Assembly: GCF_013387475.1 (NCBI RefSeq)
Contig: NZ_VWNB01000001.1
Span: 152,559-216,558, forward strand
Length of the DNA stretch: 64,000 nucleotides
Source: Mariprofundus sp. KV
GTDB lineage: Bacteria > Pseudomonadota > Zetaproteobacteria > Mariprofundales > Mariprofundaceae
Reading direction: 5' to 3'
The position numbers were made by a program, and so were the translations under genes. A model generated the notes under the pieces. The model had not been told where the DNA came from. It searched no databases and saw only the letters and a list, made by a program, of their open reading frames with translations. This document shows, one piece after another, positions 3,791-62,468 of this stretch (positions within the stretch are counted from its first letter, which is position 1; every line of letters begins with the position of its first letter).

Positions 3791-3950
3791 TTAAGGATAC
3801 TCTGAAAAGTCAGAGTATCCGAGCAGGCTATGGATGGCCTGCCAACATCATGCACTCTAAGTGCTTGATTTTGTGAGCAAAGTAACAATGACACTTTTTC
3901 CTTTGCGTGCTGAATACCTACACGGATGTAGTTATTCAGAGCATCCTTAA
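3791..3950 (-). repeat. Multi-hairpin element R1 (reverse orientation)
   Basis: A 160-bp element bounded by near-perfect 15-bp terminal inverted repeats: TTAAGGATACTCTGA at 3791-3805 and TCAGAGCATCCTTAA at 3936-3950, with one mismatch. Internal hairpins in plus-strand order are E (GGATACTCTGA stem), A (GCAGGC/GCCTGC), B (around TGCACT), the linker GTGAGCAAAG opening hairpin C (closed by CTTTGC at 3901), and D (CTGAATA/TATTCAG). It is the reverse complement of R2 and R3 at about 90% identity. It occupies the divergent region between the cupin gene and the response regulator. Confidence 0.9.
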
Positions 3951-7706: not shown

Positions 7707-7868
7707 ATCAGGAATGCTCTGAATAACTACATCCCTGTAGCTATTCAGCACGCAAAGGAAAAAGTGTCATTACTCCTTTGCTCACAACATCAGGCACTGA
7801 GAGTACATGATGTTGGCAGGCCATCCATAGCCTGCTCGGATACGCTGACTTGTTCAGAGTATCCTTAG
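7707..7868 (+). repeat. Multi-hairpin element R2
   Basis: Same element as R3, in the same orientation and about 93% identical. Order on the plus strand: D (CTGAATA/TATTCAG), C (GCAAAGG...CCTTTGC), linker TCACAA, B (ACATCA...TGATGT), A (GGCAGGCC...GCCTGC) and E (ending TCAGAGTATCCTTAG). The left terminal repeat has drifted. It lies between a terminator and the 3' end of a minus-strand parvulin gene. Confidence 0.9.
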
Positions 7869-11049: not shown

Positions 11050-11107
11050 GTGCGAATGCTAACCCGAATTCCTCAAGTGACCAGCACAGGAACTTAAAAA
11101 ACAATAC

Positions 11108-11291
11108 AACCCACGGACGGGTTGCCAAAATCATGCGTCATTTAAGCATGCTTTTGTGAGCAAAGGGAAAATGATGCGTGCCATCTTGGCACTTACTCTT
11201 CGAGCCGCCAGAGGCTGTCCAAACGGCTCCTGCCTTTTTGTGACACTTTTTCCTTTGCGTACTGAACTGGTGCATGGAAGCACCTGTTCAG
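11108..11291 (-). repeat. Multi-hairpin element R5 (divergent, with nested insert)
   Basis: Plus-strand order: A (AACCC/GGGTT with loop ACGGAC), B (CATGC/GCATG), the linker TTTTGTGAGCAAAGGG opening C, closed by TTTTTCCTTTGCGT about 100 bp later, and D (CTGAAC with an inner GGTGC/GCACC stem, closed by GTTCAG). The skeleton matches R1, but every stem has a different paired sequence. Hairpin C contains an extra 60-70 bp with its own stems (GTGCC/GGCAC and GAGCCG/CGGCTC). It lies between smpB and the SH3 protein gene. Confidence 0.8.
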
Positions 11292-23783: not shown

Positions 23784-23944
23784 TTAGGGACACTCTGAAT
23801 AACTACATCCGTGTAGGTATTCAGCACGCAAAGGAAAAAGTGTCATTATTCCTTTGCTAACAACATCAAGCACTTAGAGTGCATGATGTTGGCAGGCCAT
23901 CCATAGCCTGCTCGGATACTCTGACTTGTTCAGAGTATCCTTAG
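23784..23944 (+). repeat. Multi-hairpin element R3 (reference copy)
   Basis: Best-preserved copy, 161 bp. Plus-strand order: D (CTGAATA/TATTCAG), C (GCAAAGG/CCTTTGC), B (CAACATCA pairing with TGATGTTG around an inner GCACT/AGTGC stem), A (GCAGGC/GCCTGC with loop CATCCATA) and E (GGATACTCTGA pairing with TCAGAGTATCC). The ends TTAGGGACACTCTGA and TCAGAGTATCCTTAG are imperfect terminal inverted repeats. It fills the divergent gap before the rhodanese gene; that gene's ribosome-binding site starts immediately beyond it. Confidence 0.92.
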
Positions 23945-32685: not shown

Positions 32686-34527
32686 TTAGATATGAATGGC
32701 ACGATCATCGGAATCGAGCACGGATTCGTGGATCATCTCCGAGAGGGTTGGATGCGGGAACATGTGGTGTGCCAACTCTGCTTCAGTAGTCTCCAGTGTT
32801 TTGGCGACACCGAGTGAAACGATCATCTCGGTCGCTTCAGCACCGACGATGTGCGCACCCAGCAGCTCACCGGTTTCAGCATGAAAGATGGTTTTGACCA
32901 TGCCTTCAGTCTCAGCCAGACCCATCGCTTTACCGTTGGTGCCGTATGGCATGCGGCCCACTTTGTAGGGAATGCCCTCTTCTTTGCACGCGTTCTCTGT
33001 TTTACCGCATGAACCGACCTGTGGCTGGCAGTAGGTACAACCCGGTACATTACCATAATCAACAGGATGCGGATGTTTCCCGGCAATCGCCTCGACACAG
33101 ACAATGCCCTCATGGCTGGCCACGTGTGCCAGTGCAGGGGCACCAACCACGTCACCGATGGCGTAGATGCCGGGATGGTCGGTACGATACCAGTCATCCA
33201 CTGCAATGGTGTTACGCTCCACCTTCATGGCGGTATTTTCAGCACCAATGGCATCGGTATTACCGATCACGCCAACAGCAACCAGACAGACATCACCTTC
33301 AACACTTAACTGTTTGCCTTTGGACTCATACGCTACGATAGCTTTGCCATCGACATTTTTCGCCGACGATACCATCGCACCGGTAATAATCTTGATCTTC
33401 TGTTTCTTGAAGCTGCGCTCCACCACACGGGAGATCTCATGATCCTCCAGCGGCAGAATCTGATCCGCCGCTTCGATTACCGTCACATCAGAACCCATCG
33501 CGTTGTAGAAGTAGGCGAACTCCATGCCGATGGCTCCGGAGCCTATCACCACCAGCTTCTTCGGCAGGGCTGTTGGCGCCAGCGCCTGTTTGTAGGTGAT
33601 GATCACCTCGTTATCGACATCCATGCCCGGGAATGCACGCGCACGCGCACCGGTAGCCACAATCACATGTTTGGCGGTGACCTGCTTAGAGTTGCCTTCA
33701 CTATCTTTGACCATCAAGCGGTTATCCGCCTCAAATGTCGCGTAACCCTCGATATGTTCGATCTTGTTCTTCTTGAACAGGAAGCCGATACCACCATTGA
33801 GCTTGGCCGAGATGGCACGTGAACGGGCAACGGCCTTCTCCAGATCGGGATTGGCCTCAGTCACACCCAGGCCCAGCGCATCACCACTATGTTTGATGAT
33901 ATTGATCACCTCAGCGGTACGCAGCAGCGCTTTGGTTGGAATACAACCCCAGTTCAGGCAGATGCCACCAAGATGGGTCGACTCGATACAGGCGACCTTG
34001 AAACCGAGCTGGGCAGCACGAATCGCCGCCACATAACCGCCGGGGCCGGCGCCAATCACCACCAGATCATACTCGCCATCAGCATTGAACAGACCGGCAG
34101 TTTTCAGATGCAGAGCTTCCGCCTCCTCGGCATCGTGCGCTTCATGCGCTGCGATGGATGCCGGATGCAAATCAGGAGCGGATTCTGAACCCAGCTCAAC
34201 TGCCTCCTCACATTCAACCTCTTCACTGATCGCGATAGCACAATCTGCTGCCGAACCCTCTGCCCGGTAGTCATCTGCAACCTCTTCATCATCCTCACGA
34301 ATCACGGCAATCGGAGCGCCTACAGTGACAACAGAGCCTTCAGGGGCGATGATTTTGTGCAGCACTCCCTCATCGACAACCTCCATCTCCATGGTCGCTT
34401 TATCAGTCTCAATCTCGGCCATCACTTCACCGGAGATGAGTTCATCACCCTCTTTTTTCAACCAGCGGGCAATGCGCCCTTCGGTCATGGTTGGCGATAA
34501 CTGGGTCATAAAAATATCAATCGGCAT
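32686..34527 (-). CDS. lpdA: Dihydrolipoamide dehydrogenase (E3) with N-terminal lipoyl domain
   Basis: A 613-residue E3 subunit that re-oxidises lipoyl groups with NAD+. A lipoyl domain (1-80) carries ETDKATMEMEV with the lipoylated Lys. An acidic/Ala-rich linker follows, then the flavoprotein: VVIGAGPGGYVAAIRAAQLG, active-site disulfide GGICLNWGCIPTKALL, NAD motif KLVVIGSGAIGMEFAYF and the catalytic His region HMFPHPTLSEMIHESV. An unusual Cys-rich stretch (GCTYCQPQVGSCGKTENACK) replaces the common YTxPEVA segment. Last gene of the pdh operon. Confidence 0.95.
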   Translation of the reverse strand: MPIDIFMTQLSPTMTEGRIARWLKKEGDELISGEVMAEIETDKATMEMEVVDEGVLHKIIAPEGSVVTVGAPIAVIREDDEEVADDYRAEGSAADCAIAISEEVECEEAVELGSESAPDLHPASIAAHEAHDAEEAEALHLKTAGLFNADGEYDLVVIGAGPGGYVAAIRAAQLGFKVACIESTHLGGICLNWGCIPTKALLRTAEVINIIKHSGDALGLGVTEANPDLEKAVARSRAISAKLNGGIGFLFKKNKIEHIEGYATFEADNRLMVKDSEGNSKQVTAKHVIVATGARARAFPGMDVDNEVIITYKQALAPTALPKKLVVIGSGAIGMEFAYFYNAMGSDVTVIEAADQILPLEDHEISRVVERSFKKQKIKIITGAMVSSAKNVDGKAIVAYESKGKQLSVEGDVCLVAVGVIGNTDAIGAENTAMKVERNTIAVDDWYRTDHPGIYAIGDVVGAPALAHVASHEGIVCVEAIAGKHPHPVDYGNVPGCTYCQPQVGSCGKTENACKEEGIPYKVGRMPYGTNGKAMGLAETEGMVKTIFHAETGELLGAHIVGAEATEMIVSLGVAKTLETTEAELAHHMFPHPTLSEMIHESVLDSDDRAIHI

Positions 34528-34548
34528 TATAAAACCTCATAAAGAATT

Positions 34549-34618
34549 AACCACAGAGACACTAAGGCACAAAGAAGAGCGAATCATGTTTTTATGCCTC
34601 TTTGCACTTGCATGGTTC
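34549..34618. repeat. CACAGAGACAC-type repeat between lpdA and pdhC
   Basis: ACCACAGAGACAC then AAGGCACAAAG reads outward, and TGCCTCTTTGCACTTG approximates the other arm. Same family as the copies at 35930-35995 and 54926-54951. It fills most of the 95-bp intergenic gap inside the operon. Confidence 0.7.
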
Positions 34619-34622
34619 GTAT

Positions 34623-35909
34623 TTAAATAAGCGTTCCGGCAGGGCGCTCGATATGTTTCTTCAAGGCTGCCAGGAACTCAGCACCCACAGCACCATCCAC
34701 CACGCGGTGATCACAGGAGAGGGTCAGGGTCATCATCTTCCTCACCACAACCGCTCCATTTTCAACAACCGCGCGCTCATCAGTACCACCGACGGCGAGA
34801 ATCGCACCTTCGGGCGGATTTACAATAGCAGCAAACTGCTTCACACCATACATACCAAGATTGGAGATCGAGAAGGTGCCACCTGAATACTCTTCAGGCT
34901 GCAATTCACCAGCCCGTGCACGGGTTGCCAGCTCTTTTACTTCCGCAGAGATGTCGGAAATTCCCTTCTGCTCGGCAAAACGGATCACCGGAGTGATCAG
35001 ACCTCCGTCAATAGCCACCGCCACCGAGATATGGGCATGTTTATGCAGCAGGGTATCGCGATCTGTCCAGCTGGCGTTGGCAGCAGGCACATCCACCAGC
35101 GCCTTGGCAACCGCTTTAATAACAAAATCATTTACACTGAGCTTGAAGGCGCCATCAGCAGCTTCATTCAGCTGAGCCCGGAGATCCATCAAACGATCCA
35201 TGCTGACATCCACACTCAGATAGAAGTGTGGCACCTGCTGTTTGGACTCAGACAGGCGGCGGGCAATGGCCTTACGCATCATCGAATTCTCAACGCGCTC
35301 AAACTCATCCTCATGGTATGGAAGCGGACCGGCAGGCAGCGGACGCGCCGGAGGTGCTACAACGGCAGCCGTTGCGCCACCGATATTGATGCCGCGCCTG
35401 ACTGCTTTCTCAACATCTGATCGGGTAATACGGCCATTGGGACCGGTGCCTGCAATGGCCGCCAGATTAATCCCCTTCTGTTTGGCCAGTCGACGTGCCA
35501 GAGGACTGGCTTTGATACGTCCCTTGCGTGCCACAGGAGCCGGGGCCACAGGTGCAGCAACAATCTCAGCTACAGGTGCAGGGGCCTCTTCTACAGCAGT
35601 AGCCTGCGCCTCTTCTGCGGCCGGAGCAGCATCACCAGCGGCTGGTGCATAATCGGCAGCAACCTCTTCACCCTCCTCGGCAATCACGGCAATCACACTG
35701 CCGACAGGGACAGTGGCGCCTGCAGGTGAAAGGATTTTGTGCAAAACCCCTTCATCGACAACCTCCATCTCCATTGTCGCTTTATCGGTCTCCACCTCGG
35801 CCAGAATCTCTCCTGATTCCAGGGTATCACCCTCCTTCTTCAACCAGCGGGCTATTTTACCTTCGGTCATGGTTGGCGAGAGCTGAGTCATAAACAGATC
35901 AATCGGCAT
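34623..35909 (-). CDS. pdhC: Pyruvate dehydrogenase E2 (dihydrolipoamide acetyltransferase)
   Basis: A 428-residue E2 core protein. Order: one lipoyl domain (1-80, ETDKATMEMEV), an Ala/Pro/Glu linker, a peripheral subunit-binding domain (about 132-168, ASPLARRLAKQKGINLAAI), then the acyltransferase domain. The latter has catalytic DHRVVDGAVGAEFL near the end and FSISNLGMYGVKQFAAIVNPPEGAILAVG. The lipoyl domain is nearly identical to that of lpdA, a sign of internal duplication. It forms the core of the pyruvate dehydrogenase complex. Confidence 0.96.
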   Translation of the reverse strand: MPIDLFMTQLSPTMTEGKIARWLKKEGDTLESGEILAEVETDKATMEMEVVDEGVLHKILSPAGATVPVGSVIAVIAEEGEEVAADYAPAAGDAAPAAEEAQATAVEEAPAPVAEIVAAPVAPAPVARKGRIKASPLARRLAKQKGINLAAIAGTGPNGRITRSDVEKAVRRGINIGGATAAVVAPPARPLPAGPLPYHEDEFERVENSMMRKAIARRLSESKQQVPHFYLSVDVSMDRLMDLRAQLNEAADGAFKLSVNDFVIKAVAKALVDVPAANASWTDRDTLLHKHAHISVAVAIDGGLITPVIRFAEQKGISDISAEVKELATRARAGELQPEEYSGGTFSISNLGMYGVKQFAAIVNPPEGAILAVGGTDERAVVENGAVVVRKMMTLTLSCDHRVVDGAVGAEFLAALKKHIERPAGTLI

Positions 35910-35929
35910 AATTTTCCTCGAATTTTTTT

Positions 35930-38032: not shown

Positions 38033-38218
38033 GGTGCCTCCGGCAATGATTGGATAGGCCAAACCGCTGTTTTCAGGCAGCAACTCAGCAAGCAGAGGCA
38101 AATGTGGGATTTAGCCTCTGCTGACAAAATCGAACACAAAATATATCCGATTCTGGCGCCCCTTCCACAGGGGACACGGCAGCCTTTACGCGTCAAAGCT
38201 AGCCTAAATGAGATGGCG

Positions 38219-38335: not shown

Positions 38336-38497
38336 TTAAGGATGCGCTGAACAAGTCAGAGTATCCGTGCAGGCCTTGGATGGCTTGCCACAATCCGGAA
38401 GGAGAGCCGGATTGGACGGTATCGCCGCCTTTAGGCGATCGACACGATGCCGAGAGTCAAAATCATGCACAGTAAGTGCTTGATTTTGTGAGCAATT
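38336..38497 (-). repeat. Multi-hairpin element R4 (truncated, with extra hairpins)
   Basis: Begins with the same terminal repeat as R1 (TTAAGGATGCGCTGA, one change), then E, then A (GCAGGCC...GGCTTGC). Two extra stems not seen in R1-R3 follow (CAATCCGG / CCGGATTG and GGCGAT-type pairs). B (CAAAATCATGCAC paired with GTGCTTGATTTTG) and GTGAGCAA come next, where it stops: C and D are missing. It reaches to within 25 bp of the start of the cNMP-binding gene. Confidence 0.85.
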
Positions 38498-52345: not shown

Positions 52346-52392
52346 AAAAAAAGGGGAGCCGATTGGCTCCCCTTTTGCCATTTGCACCGGCA
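52346..52392. repeat. 47-bp direct repeat, copy A (contains terminator)
   Basis: Identical to 53682-53728 except for one base in the loop (T against G). The repeat includes a 10-bp stem AAGGGGAGCC / GGCTCCCCTT flanked by A7 and T4, and a further 16 bp outside the hairpin. It ends four bases from the stop codon of the nucleotidyltransferase gene and also ends the small basic gene on the other strand. Confidence 0.9.
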
Positions 52393-53681: not shown

Positions 53682-53728
53682 AAAAAAAGGGGAGCCGATG
53701 GGCTCCCCTTTTGCCATTTGCACCGGCA
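53682..53728. repeat. 47-bp direct repeat, copy B (contains terminator)
   Basis: Copy of 52346-52392. Acts as terminator for the minus-strand gene at 53750-54031: the eight A at 53681-53688 read as T-tract on that strand. Between the repeats lie exactly the HTH and nucleotidyltransferase genes. Confidence 0.9.
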
Positions 53729-54925: not shown

Positions 54926-54951
54926 CACCACAGAGACACGAAGGCACAAAG
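54926..54951. repeat. CACAGAGACACGAAG-type repeat (single arm)
   Basis: CACCACAGAGACAC then GAAGGCACAAAG, one arm only, near-identical to the arms of the 35930 repeat. It lies in the 350-bp gap between the two nrdJ genes. Confidence 0.7.
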
Positions 54952-54982
54952 AAAAACCAAACACCTGTAATATCTCTATAGC

Positions 54983-55091
54983 TGCGACACACGATGTGTC
55001 GCCAAAGATGAAAAGGGAGCTTTTCATCTTTGTGAGGCAAGGGAAAACCACGTTTTTCGCTTGCCGTTTAAGGGGGCGGGCAGGAGCCCGC
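54983..55091 (-). repeat. Multi-hairpin element R8
   Basis: Plus-strand order: A (GCGACAC/GTGTCGC), B (a perfect 12-bp stem, AAAGATGAAAAG / CTTTTCATCTTT, loop GGAG), linker GTGAG, C (GGCAAG / CTTGCC with inner AAAA/TTTT) and D (GCGGG/CCCGC). The order and linkers match R1 but the stem sequences differ. It sits in the gap between nrdJa and nrdJb. Confidence 0.8.
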
Positions 55092-55107
55092 ATCCCGGTT
55101 CAAACCA

Positions 55108-58318: not shown

Positions 58319-58351
58319 GACACGGACTCGGAGCATCCTGCCTTCGTCCTT

Positions 58352-58575
58352 TAACGCCATATGAAGAGCGCGGTCTTCATATGGCTTACGGCGCATTGCG
58401 CCGCCATACATCCATGTATGGAGAATTGCAGATTCTGTCACGGAGGGTGCGCAAATCATGAGTGAAACAACCAACCCGCACATGGAAGTGCGGCGGGCAA
58501 GCGCATGCGAGCCCGTAAGCGAATTGAAAACCACGTTTTTCAATTTGCATGCAAGCTCGAGGCATGGATGCCGCA
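58352..58575. repeat. Multi-hairpin region R6 (two R-like elements)
   Basis: Dense stem-loops between ubiE and ubiJ. The first half (58356-58422) has an 11-bp stem CCATATGAAGA / TCTTCATATGG, then CGGCGC/GCGCCG and CCATAC/GTATGG with loop ATCCAT. The second half (58485-58575) has GCAC/GTGC, ATTG/CAAT around AAAACCACGTTTTT and GGCAT/ATGCC. The shared AAAACCACGTTTTT segment and the loop words match R8 and R3. Confidence 0.7.
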
Positions 58576-58595
58576 GAGCGGATCAATCAATGAAT

Positions 58596-62159: not shown

Positions 62160-62275
62160 AGCCGGATAAATGCATCGTGCATTTCCCGGCTAACGCAAAG
62201 CCAAAAACGTCGTTTTGACTTTGCTCACAAAACAGAGTGCCAAGCACTCTGTTTTGGCACCCATCCATAGGTGCG
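62160..62275 (+). repeat. Multi-hairpin element R7
   Basis: Same order as R3: D (AGCCGG/CCGGCT with an inner ATGCA/TGCAT), ACGCAAAG opening C (GCAAAG / CTTTGC with inner CAAAA/TTTTG), the linker TCACA, B (a perfect 12-bp stem AAAACAGAGTGC / GCACTCTGTTTT) and A (GGCACC / GGTGC with loop CATCCATA). All stems differ in sequence from R3; the linkers do not. Confidence 0.9.
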
Positions 62276-62345
62276 GGAGCAGATTCACAACCGACTTTGA
62301 CCAGGATAAACAAACCGGCCACCTTTGTGTGGTCGATTTGCTTCC

Positions 62346-62413
62346 AGACTGAGGAGCACTGCAGTGCCGCAAAGCGGTACCAGGCTCAGTCGAAAAATGT
62401 TCAACGGTGCTCA
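62346..62413 (+). ncRNA. S-adenosylhomocysteine (SAH) riboswitch
   Basis: Matches the ahcY-type SAH riboswitch. P1 is GACTGAG (62347-62353) with CTCAGTC (62385-62391). The conserved GAGGAGCACTGC, a variable P2 (GTGCCGC ... GCGGTACC) and CCAGGCTC are all present. The pseudoknot helix forms between GAGCAC (62354-62359) and GTGCTC (62407-62412). A to G differences from known examples keep pairing. High SAH should turn on ahcY; this is established for the class. Confidence 0.93.
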
Positions 62414-62468
62414 TATTTTTATGCCCGGTTTGTTGCAACGCAGCCGGGCAAGCCATAGGAGTATGAGA

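Follow-up and report, generated by a model that had tools for sequence, protein, structure and literature searches.

An IS5-type MITE family of Proteobacteria carries a conserved, covarying hairpin fold with GGA loops that may act as a CsrA-binding RNA

The window analysed here is a 64,000-nucleotide stretch of the genome of Mariprofundus sp. KV (Zetaproteobacteria; contig NZ_VWNB01000001.1, positions 152,559 to 216,558), and all coordinates below are positions in it. The focal element occupies 161 nt, including both copies of its target-site duplication. On its minus strand, called the RNA strand in what follows, it comprises five hairpins in the order E'-A'-B'-C'-D'. Its features are:

23784..23944, RNA strand minus: focal MITE, 161 nt with both target-duplication copies
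23784..23787, no strand: target-site duplication TTAG, copy 1 (from the sequence and the YTAR statistics of the family)
23788..23798, plus: terminal inverted repeat (TIR) GGACACTCTGA, pairs with 23930-23940
23795..23824, minus: hairpin D', CUGAAUACCUACACGGAUGUAGUUAUUCAG, GGA in the loop (plus-strand TCC 23808-23810)
23828..23857, minus: hairpin C', family loop type AAAAC(S)(R)CGCUUUU
23861..23891, minus: hairpin B', inner loop often GUAA-like
23892..23911, minus: hairpin A', GCAGGCUAUGGAUGGCCUGC, loop AUGGAU with GGA (plus-strand TCC 23900-23902)
23914..23940, minus: hairpin E', made of the TIR and its inner inverted copy, at the 5' end of the RNA strand
23930..23940, minus: TIR GGATACTCTGA (minus-strand reading)
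23941..23944, no strand: target-site duplication TTAG, copy 2 (from the sequence and the empty site)

Folding of the focal copy yielded all five hairpins, with z scores of -9.5 as RNA and -11.9 as DNA, and none of 200 shuffled sequences was equally stable. The arms of E' form 11 perfect base pairs. D', which in the focal copy reads CUACACGGAUGUAG, takes its base from the inner stretch of the second TIR. Both E' and this base change along with the TIRs, from which they are made, and the E' design recurs in other genomes with other TIRs.

Including the focal element, ten related elements built of several hairpins lie in the window; eight had been listed before this analysis and two were added by a covariance model. 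The nine others are:

3792..3950, plus: full MITE copy TTAA...TTAA, 95% identity to the focal copy, RNA strand plus
7709..7868, minus: full MITE copy, 95% identity to the focal copy, target duplication decayed to TCAG/TTAG
11106..11291, plus: older copy with an insertion within hairpin C'
38059..38175, minus: older divergent copy, TIR not recognisable (covariance model, 70.8 bits)
38337..38495, plus: partial copy retaining E', A' and B', the last preceded by a hairpin-rich insert; C' and D' lost
54984..55098, plus: older copy, previously listed as R8 (covariance model, 86.1 bits)
58323..58422, minus: decayed copy, newly found (covariance model, 47 bits)
58475..58579, plus: decayed copy, newly found (covariance model, 49.6 bits)
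62162..62274, minus: older copy, previously listed as R7 (covariance model, 84.9 bits)

In the copy at 54984..55098 the A' loop reads ACGAU, having lost one G, and the D' loop AGGA is retained. Beyond the window, the 2.53-Mb genome contains 26 matches by DNA similarity and 54 covariance-model matches at E <= 0.05, some of the latter being weak second hits on the opposite strand of copies already counted; the alignment within this genome comprises 14 near full-length copies.

Several other features were noticed alongside these elements. The inserts in the copies at 11106-11291 (inside C') and 38337-38495 (at the A'/B' boundary) are foreign and hairpin-rich, and might represent another small mobile element. 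The copy at 62162-62274 is followed 71 nt downstream by a SAH riboswitch (62345-62419). An unrelated intergenic motif, the repeat ACCACAGAGACAC(T/G)AAGGCACAAAGAA, occurs at 34550-34586 and 54927-54963, the second copy stopping 20 nt short of the element at 54984. A terminator-like 47-nt repeat (52346-52392 and 53682-53728; 98% identity) has 1.3 kb between its copies, and a 263-nt repeat (34268-34530 and 35650-35912; 78% identity) marks the starts of two adjacent minus-strand ORFs that are likely paralogues. In M. erugo (G002; L106, L096, L102), MITEs form head-to-tail tandem arrays of two to three copies with one common junction resembling a target duplication.

The termini identify the focal family as non-autonomous IS5-type MITEs, a nature that the original prediction, which described the hairpin array and its covarying stems, had missed. 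Full-length copies have GGAWRCTCTGA...TCAGAGYATCC as their terminal inverted repeats, and on both sides of them stands a direct repeat of 4 bp, YTAR, which is the target duplication of IS5 (PMC10359306). YTAR is present at the element flank in 56 of the 67 copies with this TIR type, and in 45 of these 67 the identical 4-mer lies on the other side at exactly the expected offset, compared with 0-2 copies at other offsets. Moreover, the insertion site is empty in the closest relative (G001), where the two flanks meet precisely at a single TTAG with no element.

Autonomous IS5-family elements with the same ends were found in two distant host genomes. In G036, an IS5-family transposase (NCBIfam NF033581) adjoins matching TIRs and YTAR; the IS has the ends CAGGGTGCTGAAA(AAGTC) and duplications TTAG or CTAG, and its TIR is near-identical to that of the MITEs of this genome, which end in CAGGCTGCTGAAA / GACTTTTTCAGCATCCTG. 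In G135, CAGGCTGTTGAAAT is common to IS and MITE, and the 13-nt TIR of the MITE, CAGGCTGTTGAAA, is present in identical form at the IS ends. In the window's own genome we found no autonomous IS5-family element with matching ends, and among the examined PF01609 loci and contig-end fragments of Mariprofundus there was no IS5 transposase with GGAWGC.CTGA ends. The focal family thus resembles other IS5-family MITEs in being short and multi-copy, in lacking an ORF, and in having TIRs, YTAR duplications and autonomous counterparts. It differs from them in its covarying four-hairpin RNA cargo, which is kept across unrelated TIRs and is absent from the IS5 elements themselves: the covariance model R2 does not match the autonomous IS copies of G036 and G135, and the same four-hairpin core lies between unrelated TIRs in different bacterial families.

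The fold and its covariation were assessed against shuffles and against slid-pair controls, the slid versions retaining the relatedness of the copies. In a structure-blind MAFFT alignment of 16 copies, both sides had changed in 31 of 43 pairs with 92% of cells paired, a result reached by none of 500 shuffles. In 45 divergent copies from many species, double changes occurred in 402 cells, with 93% of cells paired, and the covariation score was 0.604, whereas shuffles scored 0.175 and slid structures 0.07-0.09; no shuffle matched the observed covariation, and the slid versions paired just 33-43% of cells. This second alignment was fitted to the covariance model and is therefore biased towards the structure. 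By hairpin, covariation in the 45 copies involves 7 of 8 pairs in A', 11 of 12 in B' (95.6% of cells paired), 10 of 11 in C' (94.9% of cells paired) and 12 of 12 in D'. Between distant genomes nearly all stem letters differ, with hairpin order, loops and a short linker of the UGAGC type kept. We conclude that covariation this strong across several proteobacterial families makes it very likely that the folded form is under selection.

These data bear directly on the original prediction. Its statement that at least eight elements have a common hairpin order holds, as do the sequences it quoted for stems B and C, the covariation of the stems far beyond chance and the inference of selection on the folded form. 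It would have been refuted by a lack of covariation or by stems broken through drift, neither of which was observed, as 40 of the 43 pairs had changed on both sides in the 45 copies. Two points are corrected: the hairpins had been read on the non-RNA strand and hence in another order, and the elements named hairpin E and base of D belong to the terminal inverted repeats.

It might be argued that these are ordinary MITEs and that their hairpins are a mere by-product of the terminal repeats; MITE transcripts in general do form stable stem–loops (PMC10969869). Against this, A', B' and C' are interior hairpins unrelated to the TIRs, yet 28 of their 31 pairs covary, and the four-hairpin core remains constant despite unrelated TIRs in different bacterial families. 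We consider this explanation very unlikely.

Whether the selected molecule is RNA or single-stranded DNA had been left open, and here the two strands make different predictions because a G-U pair, which is tolerated in RNA, corresponds to an A-C mismatch on the other strand. Each hairpin was folded under a strand-symmetric scheme that scores G-U and A-C alike. On the RNA strand, G-U exceeded A-C by 71 to 27 in 38 representatives of <80% identity and by 73 to 29 in 43 representatives, with 24 of 32 informative representatives favouring G-U and 8 favouring A-C (p = 0.007). At the strictest redundancy cut (<65% identity) the ratio was 7 to 2 for G-U and significance was lost (p = 0.18). The asymmetry resides mostly in B' and C'. 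Given this excess, the functional molecule is most likely an RNA of minus-strand sense for the focal copy rather than single-stranded DNA.

The competing DNA-level explanation is that cruciforms or lagging-strand hairpins are required for IS5 transposition or excision. In its favour, the TIRs supply E' and the base of D', which vary with them, and the arms also fold as single-stranded DNA. However, if DNA were the functional form, G-U should not exceed A-C; moreover, A', B' and C' are distant from the ends, and the autonomous IS copies of both G036 and G135 do without the hairpin array. We therefore regard this explanation as very unlikely.

How such an RNA would be made is a matter of inference, as we have no transcription data. 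In the focal region we found no sigma-70-like or consensus promoter and no terminator for an independent sRNA, a search that does not cover other sigma factors; the only match resembling a terminator falls within B'. Sense orientation with neighbouring genes was not enriched (28 of 63 copies for the 5' gene), copies were slightly rarer upstream of co-directional genes (23 of 63, p = 0.04), and orientation relative to genes in these 63 copies gave no evidence for a role in 3' or 5' UTRs. As the element has no obvious promoter and its copies do not favour the sense orientation relative to their neighbours, any transcription in vivo probably occurs, as a rule, by read-through from outside.

The loops of the outer hairpins A' and D' contain a conserved GGA, which the original prediction had missed because it read the other strand. 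GGA is present in A' in 36 of 43 representatives and in D' in 36 of 43, with 35 (A') and 34 (D') of the 43 having it in the terminal loop. The extended motif CA(N)GGANG occurs in A' in 23 of 43 and in D' in 26 of 43 representatives, compared with an average of 0.5 in shuffled hairpins; in the same 43 representatives it was found neither in B', nor in C', nor on the other strand. The SELEX consensus of CsrA is RUACARGGAUGU with GGA in the hairpin loop of most ligands, and the loops of CsrB read CAGGA(U/A/C)G (PMC7652899). The focal D' sequence UACACGGAUGUA matches this consensus save for the base before GGA. The two GGA loops are ~90 nt apart, which exceeds the reported upper bound of 63 nt for bridging by a CsrA dimer (PMC7652899); the intervening hairpins shorten the path. 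In the absence of binding data, we infer from the loops that the RNA binds CsrA/RsmA, a reading we hold to be the better one by a modest margin.

The distribution of the element is associated with that of csrA. In one sample of 398 genomes of Pseudomonadota, 50 carry the element and 219 have csrA. The two co-occur: csrA was found in 48 of 50 element-bearing compared with 171 of 348 element-free genomes and, at a completeness of >=90%, in 31 of 31 compared with 139 of 307. The two element-bearing genomes without csrA are incomplete MAGs (G227 and G275; 74 and 69% complete). This association is partly confounded by phylogeny; less so is the comparison within the window's own family, in which 36 of 59 csrA-positive and 2 of 15 csrA-negative genomes contain the element (p = 0.001). 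Outside the window's order, matches occur in eight families, two of them weak (G259, G396), and csrA is present in all. The window's own genome has two csrA genes. Searches of viral contigs with a single exact pattern, and of phages and plasmids by blastn with single copies, returned no match.

Match numbers, which may count some opposite-strand matches, reach at least ~149 in the 1.8-Mb genome G026, 92 in G029 and 75 in G137; M. erugo P3 has ~65 model matches. As a separate observation, the 4.8-Mb genome G135 carries nine csrA-like genes alongside ~12 element copies.

Covariation could also be mimicked without selection on structure, by template-switch correction of quasi-palindromes combined with bursts from master copies. 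Quasi-palindrome correction is a known mutational process at inverted repeats, and the copies here are repeated and many are young. Such correction, however, gives no reason for G-U over A-C or for tracking of csrA, nor does it account for the retention of GGA loops, linkers and hairpin order between proteobacterial families whose stems differ in every letter. We judge it very unlikely; similarly, the possibility raised by the original prediction that the elements are copied by a structure-recognising process is not needed and fails on the conserved loops, the strand asymmetry and the csrA association.

No copy in the window matched an Rfam family at gathering threshold, in agreement with the earlier view that no named class has this layout. 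Below threshold, the RNA strand of the whole element matched RsmW (L222; 30.0 bits, cut-off 52) and rsmX (L193; 20.9 bits, cut-off 56), both members of Rfam clan CL00106, and the best subthreshold match of L193 was to TD-2 RNA (RF03162; 29.3 bits, cut-off 48.7), with the middle part unaligned. We treat these matches as leads and not as membership. Similarly to the CsrB, CsrC, RsmX, RsmY, RsmZ and RsmW sRNAs, the element has GGA hairpin loops in a CA(N)GGANG context and a length of ~120 nt; unlike them, it is mobile and multi-copy, has no promoter of its own that we could see, scores below the Rfam gathering thresholds, and has two GGA hairpins flanking two non-GGA hairpins. TD-2 has a 5' hairpin with the loop AUGGAU and a 3' hairpin CUGAAAA...GGAU...UUUUCAG, comparable to A' and D', but its middle does not align with B'-C'.

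Two further RNAs with similar loops, TwoAYGGAY (RF01731) and the reverse complement of Bacillaceae-1, have been proposed to bind CsrA (PMC4333381). They share with the element two hairpin loops of the AYGGAY type and the same functional proposal, and differ from it in layout. TwoAYGGAY, considered on account of these loops, gave no match to L193 in a permissive 261-base scan with E up to 5, and none in any other copy scanned. The ERIC repeats of enterobacteria are likewise MITE-like and intergenic with structure at the RNA level, and hairpin B' has a short similarity to them, GTAAGTGACTG...TGAGCG. Homology suspected on this ground was rejected, as the covariance models R1 and R2 do not match the ERIC copy L200. 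In G029 (L109-L118), hairpin B' CAGGA..GUAAGUGACUG...AAGCGAA resembles part of ERIC (AAGTAAGTGACTGGGGTGAGCG), which the covariance models likewise miss.

A structured mobile RNA might instead serve a partner other than CsrA, such as a ProQ- or Hfq-like protein, an RNase, the ribosome or another RNA, or it might stabilise or insulate mRNAs. CsrA alone leaves the conservation of the B' and C' loops and of the linker unexplained, and B' and C' hold most of the G-U asymmetry. Conversely, CA(N)GGANG is confined to both outer hairpins and to one strand, the element is associated with csrA, and RsmW and rsmX are among the best Rfam matches of the RNA strand. We find a non-CsrA partner unlikely.

Altogether, we favour, with moderate confidence, a model in which the mobile MITE family carries a CsrA-binding RNA as its conserved cargo. 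The MITE nature with host-matched ends, the covarying fold, its strand, the conserved GGA loops and the co-occurrence with csrA rest on the data above; binding, transcription and effect are all inferred. According to this model, resident IS5-family transposases would recognise host-matched TIRs and move the MITEs, leaving a YTAR duplication, and the conserved internal cargo would be a structured RNA of ~116 nt encoded on the strand opposite to the one first described. Once a copy is transcribed, its RNA would fold in the order E'-A'-B'-C'-D', and the outer hairpins A' and D' would expose loop GGA for binding by host CsrA/RsmA. The outcome may be titration of CsrA in the manner of CsrB and Rsm RNAs, or control by CsrA of the transcript that bears the copy; titration as the effect is an inference towards which we remain slightly sceptical. 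A gain for the element itself, for example less harm to host transcripts, is possible and untested. It is tempting to speculate further that a widespread proteobacterial mobile family captured or evolved a CsrA-binding RNA that is selected while transposase partners switch, with its copies, tens to ~150 per genome, serving as a distributed CsrA sponge or as portable CsrA operators, such that a selfish element tunes the global post-transcriptional regulator of its host. We offer this bolder reading tentatively, as one that may well prove wrong.

Bacterial MITEs are mostly seen as inert remnants that arose from insertion sequences by deletion. In the MITE family described here, the terminal repeats track the resident transposase, yet the RNA fold stays constant over several proteobacterial families, and a covariance model for the MITE RNA is ready for use in tests. 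To our knowledge, no CsrB-type RNA has been described in Zetaproteobacteria, which gain a candidate CsrA antagonist. Should CsrA bind this RNA, binding sites for a global regulator would be spread by a transposable element, comparable to the spread of regulatory elements by eukaryotic transposons, and copy number would directly shift the availability of CsrA.
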